Positions 56,691 through 59,186 of a stretch of 64,000 bases of DNA are shown here, piece by piece. The translations under genes and the position numbers were made by a program. Source of the stretch: Myxococcales bacterium (GTDB lineage: Bacteria; Myxococcota_A; Polyangia; Polyangiales; JAFGIB01). The stretch lies in assembly GCA_029880325.1 (NCBI GenBank), contig JAOUOP010000043.1, positions 1-64,000 of the forward strand, written 5' to 3'. Under the pieces are notes generated by a model. That model did no database searches. It had not been told where the DNA came from and saw nothing but the letters and a program-made list of their open reading frames with translations. How positions within the stretch are numbered: the stretch's first letter is position 1; each line of letters starts with the position of its first letter.

Positions 56691-56750
56691 GGGCCCAAGT
56701 GTCGCGGCAAAGCGGCGGGCGGGCAAACCGAGCGCCGTCGCCGCCTTACC

Positions 56751-56942
56751 TCAGCCCTCGGTCGAACTCGGCAGCTCTCCGCGGTAGCCCTCCATGAAGG
56801 CGCGGGTGAACTCGCCGGCGGCCAGGCGCGCACGCTCGCCCACCTTGGCCAGCAGTGCCGGCTGCTTGCGGCTCATCACCTCGAGGGCGAAGGCGCCCAC
56901 GAAGACCCCAGCGATTACGCCCAACATCAGCTTCGTCGTCAT
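56751..56942 (-). CDS. Small single-helix membrane protein (YtxH-like)
   Basis: A 63-residue peptide. GAGG lies 9 nt before ATG 56942. One hydrophobic segment (LMLGVIAGVFVGAFALEV) is followed by an amphipathic helix with Lys, Arg and Glu. The layout recalls YtxH/DUF883-type small proteins. Located between nfeD and the next helical protein on the same strand. Confidence 0.6.
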   Translation of the reverse strand: MTTKLMLGVIAGVFVGAFALEVMSRKQPALLAKVGERARLAAGEFTRAFMEGYRGELPSSTEG

Positions 56943-57027
56943 CTCCAAACCTCGCTCGTCGTGGCAACCATGGTCCGGGCGCCCGGTGACAGCCGTCCCG
57001 GGCGCGCGTTCGTCGTTCGGGGCGGCA

Positions 57028-57516
57028 TCAGGACTCGCCCTCGGAAGTGCTTGCTTCAGCCTTGGCTTCGGCGGCCTCTCCCGGCGCTCCGGCTTCGGTC
57101 TTGGCTTCGGTCTTGGCGGCCTGTTCGGGGGTCGCCGTCGCCCGCTTCTCGCCGGCCAGCTCCGGCGCCGGTCCGAAGTGCAGGTCGTGCAGCTGCTGCA
57201 CCACGTTCCAGAAGCGCCGATCGTCCTCCAGGGCCGCGTAGGCCTGGGCCGAGTGCTGGCGCACCAGCTCCGCCAGCTCGTTGAGCAGCTCGTAGACCTG
57301 GGCGTCACCGGCGGTCAGTCCCCGGCGCAGGCCCAGCCGCGAAAGCACCATCGACAGCGATCCGCCCAGGACGCCCGCCCATTCGGTGGCCACGCGCGAG
57401 GCACGCCCCAAGGAGCGACCGACGCTGGCGGCCAGCAGTGCCTCCTGGGCCGAGCCGCTGGCGGCTGCCGGGGCCCGTTCGGGGATCGGGACCTCGTCGG
57501 CTGTGGCTTCAGTCAT
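57028..57516 (-). CDS. Helical protein of unknown function with Ala/Glu-rich tail
   Basis: A 162-residue soluble or membrane-associated protein from ATG 57516. The central part is predicted helical (LGRASRVATEWAGVLGGSLS, LNELAELVRQHSAQAYAALE), phasin-like in texture. The last ~40 residues are Lys/Ala/Glu/Thr low-complexity. No family recognised. It is divergent from the Leu-Gly-repeat gene and may share its regulatory region. Confidence 0.55.
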   Translation of the reverse strand: MTEATADEVPIPERAPAAASGSAQEALLAASVGRSLGRASRVATEWAGVLGGSLSMVLSRLGLRRGLTAGDAQVYELLNELAELVRQHSAQAYAALEDDRRFWNVVQQLHDLHFGPAPELAGEKRATATPEQAAKTEAKTEAGAPGEAAEAKAEASTSEGES

Positions 57517-57784: not shown

Positions 57785-57799
57785 TGAAAATCGTTTTCA
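57785..57799. promoter_or_regulatory. Fur-box-like palindrome
   Basis: TGAAAAT-C-GTTTTCA is a 7-1-7 inverted repeat with one arm mismatch (T opposite G), matching the TGAnAATnATTnTCA form of ferric-uptake-regulator sites. It sits in an AT-rich island (57750-57815), 76 nt upstream of ATG 57876. It predicts iron-dependent control of the Mms6-like gene. No fur gene is in the window. Confidence 0.6.
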
Positions 57800-57875
57800 T
57801 CTTCATTAAGCTCGGTCTTGTCCTGCCCGGCCTGTGCACTGCGCCCAGGCCCTTTGAGGTGGGGAGAAGGTTGCC

Positions 57876-59186
57876 ATGGCCAACGTTGGAAACTCGATGA
57901 TCAGCATCAAGCTGCGCGGAGCGGACGCGCTGGCGGCCCTGCAGGGCAAGGGCGGCCTGATGGCTGCCAACCCCGGGCTTCCGGGTATGCTCGGCGCGGC
58001 CCCCGGCGGAGCGCCGATGGTCCAGATGCTCCCCATGCAGGGAGGTCACCAGCTGGTTCAGCTACCGGGCGGGCAGCTCGGGGCCGTGCACGTGGCGCCG
58101 CTGCAGGGCGGCGCGCCGGTGACGGTATTCAAGGCGCCGCTCGGCCAGGCGGCCATCGGTGGCTGGGTGCCCGCCGTGCAGACCGCCCAGACTCAGGCGA
58201 TGCCGGCGGTGACGGTAGCCCAGGGCGGCGTGATGCGGGGCGTGGAGATCGAAGGCGGACGCGCGGCCGTCGGCAAGGGTGCGGTCATGCGCGGCGTGGA
58301 GATCGAGGGCGGTCGTCGGGCCGCCATGGGCAAGGGCGCGGTGATGCGCGGCGCCGAAAACGAGGGCGGTCGCGCCATGGCCGCCAAGGCCGGCGGCAAG
58401 GGCGCGGTGATGCGCGGCGCCGAAAACGAGGGCGGTCGCGCCATGGCCGCCAAGGCCGGTGGCAAGGGCGCGGCGATGCGCGGCGCTGAAAACGAGGGCG
58501 GTCGCGCCATGGCCGCCAAGGCCGGTGGCAAGGGCGCGGCGATGCGCGGCGCTGAAAACGAGGGCGGTCGCGCCATGGCCGCCAAGGCCGGCAAGGCCGC
58601 CAAGGCCGGCGGCAAGGGCGCGGCGGTAACCCAGGCGGCGCCGGCAGTCCAGGCGGCGCCAGCGGTCCAGAACGCGGTGGCCACCACCCCCGCCGCCTGT
58701 CCCCCGGGCGCAGCGGCCAAGACCGTCGCAGGTGCGGCACCGTCGACTGCGGGCACGCCACTGGCGGCTCCGGCCAAGGCCACCGCGACCACCGCGACCA
58801 CCGCGACCACTGCGACCACCGCGACCACTGCGACCACCGCGACCACCGCGGCTCCGGCCAAGGTGGCCACCGCCGCCAGCAAGGTCGCCGGCGCGGCGGC
58901 GGCGGCGCCGAGTGCCACCGTGGCAGCAGCCCCGAGTGCTGCTGCGGCCGCGGTGCCCGCGAAGGTGGCGGCCACCACCGCGGCTACTACCGTGGCCACC
59001 AAGAGCGCGGTGGCCGGTGCGGCCACTGCCGGCACCATCTGGAGCGGCACCGGGCTCAGCCTGGGCCTGGGTCTGGGCCTGGGCGCCCTGGGGCCGGCCC
59101 TGCTGGTCGGGGCCTTGGGCCTGGCCGCCGCTGGAATCTACATGTTCCGGGCCGGCGGTGACGATGCGGTCTACGACGAGGTCTGA
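57876..59186 (+). CDS. Leu-Gly repeat protein with Mms6/MamD-like C-terminus
   Basis: A 436-residue protein; GGGGAGAAGG precedes ATG 57876. No signal peptide. The N-terminal ~110 residues (MISIKLRGADALAALQGKGG, VTVFKAPLGQAA) are followed by six MRG-containing repeats (118-235), the last four nearly identical 22-mers GKGAVMRGAENEGGRAMAAK. An Ala/Thr/Lys/Val-rich spacer with ATT triplets ends at 384. The C-terminus reads GTIWSGTGLSLGLGLGLGAL, then GPALLVGALGLAAAGIYMF and an acidic tail GGDDAVYDEV. Magnetospirillum Mms6 has GTIWTGKG, (LG)n, GPIILG and an acidic iron-binding tail, after a similar Ala/Lys/Thr-rich leader. I infer a membrane protein with an iron- or mineral-binding tail. Confidence 0.75.
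   Translation: MANVGNSMISIKLRGADALAALQGKGGLMAANPGLPGMLGAAPGGAPMVQMLPMQGGHQLVQLPGGQLGAVHVAPLQGGAPVTVFKAPLGQAAIGGWVPAVQTAQTQAMPAVTVAQGGVMRGVEIEGGRAAVGKGAVMRGVEIEGGRRAAMGKGAVMRGAENEGGRAMAAKAGGKGAVMRGAENEGGRAMAAKAGGKGAAMRGAENEGGRAMAAKAGGKGAAMRGAENEGGRAMAAKAGKAAKAGGKGAAVTQAAPAVQAAPAVQNAVATTPAACPPGAAAKTVAGAAPSTAGTPLAAPAKATATTATTATTATTATTATTATTAAPAKVATAASKVAGAAAAAPSATVAAAPSAAAAAVPAKVAATTAATTVATKSAVAGAATAGTIWSGTGLSLGLGLGLGALGPALLVGALGLAAAGIYMFRAGGDDAVYDEV
58228..58620 (+). repeat. Tandem coding repeats of about 66 bp
   Basis: Six units sharing the MRG motif. The last four are almost identical at the DNA level and encode 22-residue repeats. Near-identity of synonymous positions indicates recent duplication or gene conversion. 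A second array of 9-bp units (GCGACCACC and variants) lies at 58782-58850 and encodes the Ala-Thr-Thr run. Confidence 0.85.

Follow-up and report, generated by a model that had tools for sequence, protein, structure and literature searches.

The window analysed here, a stretch of 64,000 nucleotides that forms part of the 74-kb contig C25 in a myxococcotal assembly of 8.16 Mb and 156 contigs, carries on its plus strand a genuine gene at 57876-59186, whose open reading frame encodes a 436-residue protein with a Leu-Gly (LG) domain of the Mms6/MamD class, as judged from profile matches and shuffle controls. The frame starts with an ATG preceded by a few bases by GGGGAGAAGG (57861-57870, plus strand), read as a likely ribosome-binding site, and 76 bp 5' of that ATG lies an inverted repeat, TGAAAA-TCG-TTTTCA (57785-57799, without strand), that resembles a Fur box. 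The 19-bp Fur consensus is matched there at 13 of 19 positions in two overlapping registers (57780 and 57786), and since about 0.8 matches of such quality are expected per 74 kb of simulated sequence, the site is suggestive of a possible control by Fur and nothing firmer. A scan for sigma-70 promoters found none. Divergent from it, at 56726-57516 of the window, are two small genes for proteins of 63 and 162 residues with no Pfam family, and beyond them NfeD-like and then SPFH genes.

The N-terminal region of the protein (residues 1-116; 57876-58223, plus strand, as are all the following segments) is rich in Gly, Met, Gln and Pro and gave no significant match to the N-terminal repeat domain of MamD (IEGxRQ...AGKTxTVxKxP...W), which was undetected in the LG protein, with a best score of 2.6 bits. 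There follows a net positive repeat region (residues 117-246; 58224-58613) with the 22-residue unit GKGA[AV]MRGAENEGGRAMAAKAG; its 66-bp tandem array at 58329-58592 comprises 4.0 copies with a 97% match, plus two degenerate copies upstream, which bears out the fusion to 22-residue repeats described in the first-pass annotation. A linker of Ala, Thr, Pro and Lys (residues 247-385; 58614-59030), with no acidic residue within 247-384, leads into GTIWSGTGLSLGLGLGLGALGPALL, then into a hydrophobic helix and finally into the tail AGGDDAVYDEV. The LG-repeat signature GTIWSGTGLSLGLGLGLGALG (59031-59093) was delimited by profile matches and alignment with LG proteins, and the end of its LG run is overlapped by a predicted membrane helix (residues 404-425; 59085-59150): nearly all the 19-residue windows starting at 393-408 exceed a hydropathy of 1.6. 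The short acidic tail, read from the translation (59151-59183, segment net charge -3), brings four acidic residues to the last 13 (DD..DE), has no DEEVE, and shows no clear equivalents of the ferric-binding E44, E50 and R55 of Mms6 (PMC7041794). All the C-terminal segments listed earlier (GTIWSGTG, the LG run, GPALL, helix and acidic tail) are thus present in this frame, and the core GTIW-x-G-x-G, LG run and G-A-W-G-P is kept with a single deviation, as Leu (GALGP) replaces the Trp that all the other LG proteins retrieved have in GA/P-W-GP.

In a search against NCBIfam, the last 51 residues matched MamD (8.2e-12), Mms6 (2.5e-8) and MamG (1.2e-5) and no other family, in agreement with the likeness to Mms6 and MamD proposed beforehand. 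The MamD model (NF040916) gave 44.8 bits with the protein and 49.6 bits by six-frame search, and the Mms6 model (NF040917) 32.8 bits; given that both curated equivalog cut-offs (100 bits for MamD and 200 for Mms6) are missed, the protein should be regarded as a member of the LG class rather than as a strict equivalog. A score of 45 bits with MamD is nevertheless at family level, because genuine Mms6 (the mature AMB-1 protein, with the sequence from PMC7041794), which earns 126 bits with its own model, reaches just 55 bits with that of MamD. In 399 genomes around one Magnetococcales genome, 46 matched the MamD model, and the LG matches listed range from 30 to more than 300 bits, a span that brackets the present protein. 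Of two contig scans in genomes, the first returned no match and the second at least two Magnetococcales loci. No solved structure and no Pfam family were found for the LG protein, and a phage or plasmid origin was rejected after searches of PHROGs, viral contigs and plasmids gave no match.

As a control, a profile HMM was built from nine other LG proteins or domains (Magnetococcales and Magnetospirillum), and against it the real LG domain scored 55.4 bits, while full shuffles (n=1000) did not exceed 9.9 bits and shuffles that kept the LG run (n=1000) did not exceed 23.9 bits. Since the shuffles score so far below, the likeness to Mms6 and MamD does not derive from composition alone. Furthermore, at an E-value of 1e-3 only three of 284 genomes of the phylum matched the MamD model, namely the present genome, at 49.6 bits, and two others that reached 20-23 bits; the top score in the 283 others was 22.6 bits, generic Gly-Leu proteins included, no match appeared in 14 control genomes, and the LG gene was the sole match in its own genome. 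The GTIW-LG-GP pattern, whose conservation had been put forward as a check, is conserved among homologues. A generic Gly-Leu linker was accordingly discarded on the shuffles and the genome controls, and the broader idea that a Gly-Leu membrane anchor with an Ala-rich linker came to resemble Mms6 by chance, for which the low-complexity sequence, the genome GC of 67-71% and the sub-cut-off scores could be invoked, is strongly disfavoured and barely credible in view of these controls, of the matching anchors outside the LG run (GTIW, G-G, GP), of an N-terminal motif in common with Magnetococcales LG proteins and of the mam genes in the same genome.

Of that motif, KGAxM[KR]G, the LG protein has five copies, the Mms6-like L016 two and L018 one, L016 and L018 being from one Magnetococcales genome; it was absent from about 930,000 residues of control translations (579,000 from other frames of the own genome and 350,000 from other non-LG frames). 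Together with the composition it indicates the Ala/Lys/Gly-rich N-terminal domain that is a trait of Mms6. Full-length MamD was ruled out, its N-terminal domain being undetectable.

The gene had been placed outside any magnetosome island, and this stands for the 64-kb window, where no mam genes were found, but not for the genome, in which contig C153 carries an operon-like mam cluster (C153:29945-43552, all on the minus strand) recognised through NCBIfam and PF18509 matches. The magnetochrome domain PF18509 served as diagnostic probe for magnetosome genes; Magnetococcales controls matched as expected, and three genes matched on C153, with three matches above the Pfam cut-off. The cluster reads mamI, mamE (protease), a PDZ gene, a magnetochrome/PDZ gene, a mamL-like gene, mamM, mamB, mamA, mamQ, mamP (PDZ and two magnetochrome domains), the TauE half of mamO, an EcsC-family gene, an M48 peptidase gene, an unknown gene and a magnetochrome/membrane gene with a MamT match, all of them open. 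NCBIfam E-values are 6e-13 for MamI, 7e-68 for MamM (1e-46 with the generic CDF family), 3e-73 for MamB, 6e-41 for MamA, 8e-14 for MamQ, 4e-16 for MamP, 4e-31 for MamO and 5e-10 for MamT, and as the scores lie under the strict equivalog cut-offs, these Mam proteins are divergent. The protease matches MamE at 8e-57 and generic DegP equally well, so that it is named from its cluster position, and the mamL-like gene, with no family match, from position and size only. Three genes share the domains of MamE between them, and of MamO only the TauE half is left.

The core magnetosome set (mamA, B, M, P, Q, E, O and I; PMC7449369) is represented throughout on C153, MamO by that TauE half only, so far as gene content can tell. 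Targeted six-frame searches, on which all the gene absences reported for this genome rest, gave no match for MamK, MamC, MamF/MmsF or MamS, whereas the same queries do find the MamK, MamC and MmsF copies of the genome G311. For mamK, a missing contig of the 156-contig bin may be the reason; the Magnetococcales MamK query had no match, and the actin-family matches inspected are MreB, FtsA and Hsp70 proteins. Contig C31 holds two weak matches (25-29% identity), to MamN and MamH, both of which have generic relatives. Within the cluster, the EcsC-family protein, the M48 peptidase, whose N-terminus resembles a zinc ribbon, and the unknown 190-residue protein (C153:30888-33428) are candidate accessory magnetosome genes. 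The intergenic region 5' of mamI (C153:43553-43842) contains several GATCGATC-type palindromes and ATCGATCAAATGATCG twice, possible sites for a regulator, and at C153:20555-22218 a REP-associated-transposase-like gene (HIHMVV motif) lies beside short GC-rich repeats. With this cluster in the same genome, the separate, non-magnetosome iron compartment entertained in the first-pass annotation is not needed.

Do contigs C25 and C153 come from one organism? With 386 kb of the remaining genome as tetranucleotide reference, the mam region correlates at 0.876, the pieces of C25 (14-20 kb) at 0.85-0.93 and 19 of 20 pieces from other contigs of the bin at 0.84-0.92, compared with at most 0.71 for relatives and Magnetococcales; a 3-kb piece centred on the LG locus gives 0.44 by itself but is too short and too repetitive for a verdict. 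A MYXO-CTERM gene lies on C153 about 5 kb from the mam cluster, and such matches number 14 in this genome and none in the 14 control genomes. The assignment to Myxococcota is based on MYXO-CTERM and on the character of the genome. The alcohol dehydrogenase adjoining the cluster shares 63-65% identity with its counterparts in the same genus and family and 49% with that of Magnetococcales, and this dehydrogenase and the NfeD and SH3 genes in the neighbourhood of the LG gene have homologues in genomes of the same genus or family, mostly at 56-69%. The genomes G001-G004 carry homologues of the NfeD, SH3-protein and alcohol-dehydrogenase genes, but with no LG gene visible next to them on contigs that are short. 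Both contigs thus appear to belong to one myxococcotal genome, and contamination is unlikely because tetranucleotide signature, MYXO-CTERM and flanking homologues all agree with the host.

It could still be argued that C153 was binned from another organism and that the LG protein has some other role in a non-magnetotactic myxobacterium. The bin comprises many contigs and has an estimated contamination of 5.21%, the same-genus G001 shows neither mam genes nor the LG gene, and atypical contigs do occur in the bin, as shown by L094 (C52:40001-56510; GC 62%, tetranucleotide r 0.53), a mobile element or contaminating contig. Against this, the mam region and its flanks carry the host signature, a MYXO-CTERM gene lies 5 kb from the cluster, the adjoining dehydrogenase is nearer to copies of the same genus and family than to that of Magnetococcales, and the mam cluster and the LG protein, as lines of evidence independent of each other, meet in one bin of 379 genomes; such an artefact is therefore very unlikely. 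The cluster was found in only one of these 379 phylum genomes, the others giving no MamQ, MamL or MamI matches and generic CDF transporters only. Horizontal acquisition of the LG gene and the cluster is possible, although neither the mam region nor the contig of the LG gene looks newly acquired, since both carry the host's signature.

A further alternative holds that cluster and LG protein are relics or repurposed, making magnetosome-like vesicles or an iron store without magnetotaxis. It would account for the failure to find mamK, mamC and mmsF, the distribution of the MamE domains over three genes, the reduction of MamO and the lack of linkage between LG gene and cluster, and it has a precedent in the silent magnetosome clusters of a non-magnetotactic phototroph (PMC9938234). 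However, a separate 'MamO-Cter' is listed for other magnetosome clusters too (PMC9376291), all the genes of the cluster are open, and most of the core vesicle and nucleation functions are represented. Flagellin, which swimming magnetotaxis would need, is encoded in the same genome. A relic or repurposed system is, in sum, unlikely.

Mms6-type proteins are used by magnetic bacteria for shaping magnetite crystals, and the reading preferred here, held with good though not full confidence, is that the LG protein is the one membrane protein of Mms6/MamD class in a magnetosome system of a Myxococcota. It is likely the sole protein of its class in this putative magnetosome-former, on a contig separate from the mam cluster. 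This could be a magnetic myxobacterium not yet described, because an Mms6-class gene and most organelle-building genes are found in one genome. It is slightly more likely than not that the organism, as a flagellated member of Myxococcota, forms magnetosomes of magnetite by means of a minimal cluster lacking MamK and an unlinked, Fur-controlled, repeat-bearing Mms6-type protein. Weighing against the preferred reading are the sub-cut-off scores, the lack of MamK, MamC and MamF/MmsF matches, the unlinked LG gene, the short tail without DEEVE, the change of the conserved Trp to Leu, the presence of the cluster in one of 379 genomes and the 5.21% contamination.

In AMB-1 Mms6, the GL repeats are linked to membrane localisation, and a helix begins inside them and overlaps the LG run (PMC11332177); recruitment, which is conditional, is under the control of the N-terminal domain, and iron is bound by the acidic tail (PMC11332177, PMC4900750, PMC7041794). 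For Mms6 the membrane role has been shown, and packing of monomers has been proposed. By analogy, the GTIW-LG segment and its overlapping helix would place the protein within the magnetosome membrane, its monomers packed laterally, and the basic Ala/Lys-rich repeat domain, on the side opposite to the crystal, would set the timing of recruitment. The acidic tail might face the crystal and bind iron, a tentative step since the tail is short. The organelle, known here as genes alone, would be built by the C153 mamI-E-P-L-M-B-A-Q-P-O cluster, and expression of the LG gene may be under Fur.

A survey of 2020 recorded mms genes in Proteobacteria, Nitrospinota and SAR324 alone (PMC7602337), and Myxococcota receive no more than a brief mention as possibly magnetotactic (PMC12748827; PMC12403892). 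The literature searched, whose coverage is incomplete, yielded no description of a magnetosome cluster or of an Mms6 protein from Myxococcota, so that the novelty stands as 'not found' rather than as proven. A divergent myxococcotal mam cluster with an Mms6-class protein bears on the question of ancient inheritance versus transfer between phyla, and the protein offers a natural variant (Trp to Leu in the core, short tail, 22-residue repeats) for testing which parts of Mms6 crystal shaping needs. If the reading is true, Mms6-class crystal shaping extends to a phylum known for social and predatory life, and a crystal-shaping gene is separable from the organelle-building cluster. In any case, a candidate lineage is named in which to seek a magnetotactic myxobacterium.

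Among known systems, the cluster on contig C293 of the Magnetococcales genome G310 likewise has mamI, E, M, B, A, Q, P and O homologues and magnetochrome domains, at 29-39% identity for most larger proteins and 23% for MamQ. The gene order differs, and the present cluster has split mamE and mamO, EcsC-family and M48 genes and no mamK, mamC or mmsF found. In G310, LG genes (L011, L013, L015, L017, L039 and L040) lie on different contigs, so LG genes are often at several places; that set comprises three full MamD along with Mms6-like, MamG-like and short LG proteins. MamG (NF040985) has the LG core in common with the present protein but is short (a 102-position profile), lacks a long repeat domain and gives only 20-26 bits. 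MamD/Mms7 is the top-scoring family (45 bits, under its cut-off), and the LG core (GTIW...GP...G) has 24 of 27 residues identical to Magnetococcales MamD L017, while its N-terminal repeat domain is missing from the matches. Unlike Mms6 (Magnetospirillum; Magnetococcales L016 and L019), the protein has 436 residues instead of about 157-256, 22-residue repeats with E-N-E, GALGP for GAWGP, a tail without DEEVE, no linkage to mmsF or the mam cluster, and 32.8 bits against a cut-off of 200. Features in common with Mms6 are an N-terminal domain of Ala, Lys and Gly that carries repeats of the KGAxM[KR]G type, the GTIW-x-G, the LG run overlapping a membrane helix, GP and an acidic tail, here short. 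As KGAxM[KR]G is common to Magnetococcales Mms6-type proteins, the overall architecture appears closest to Mms6, though the LG core scores best with MamD.
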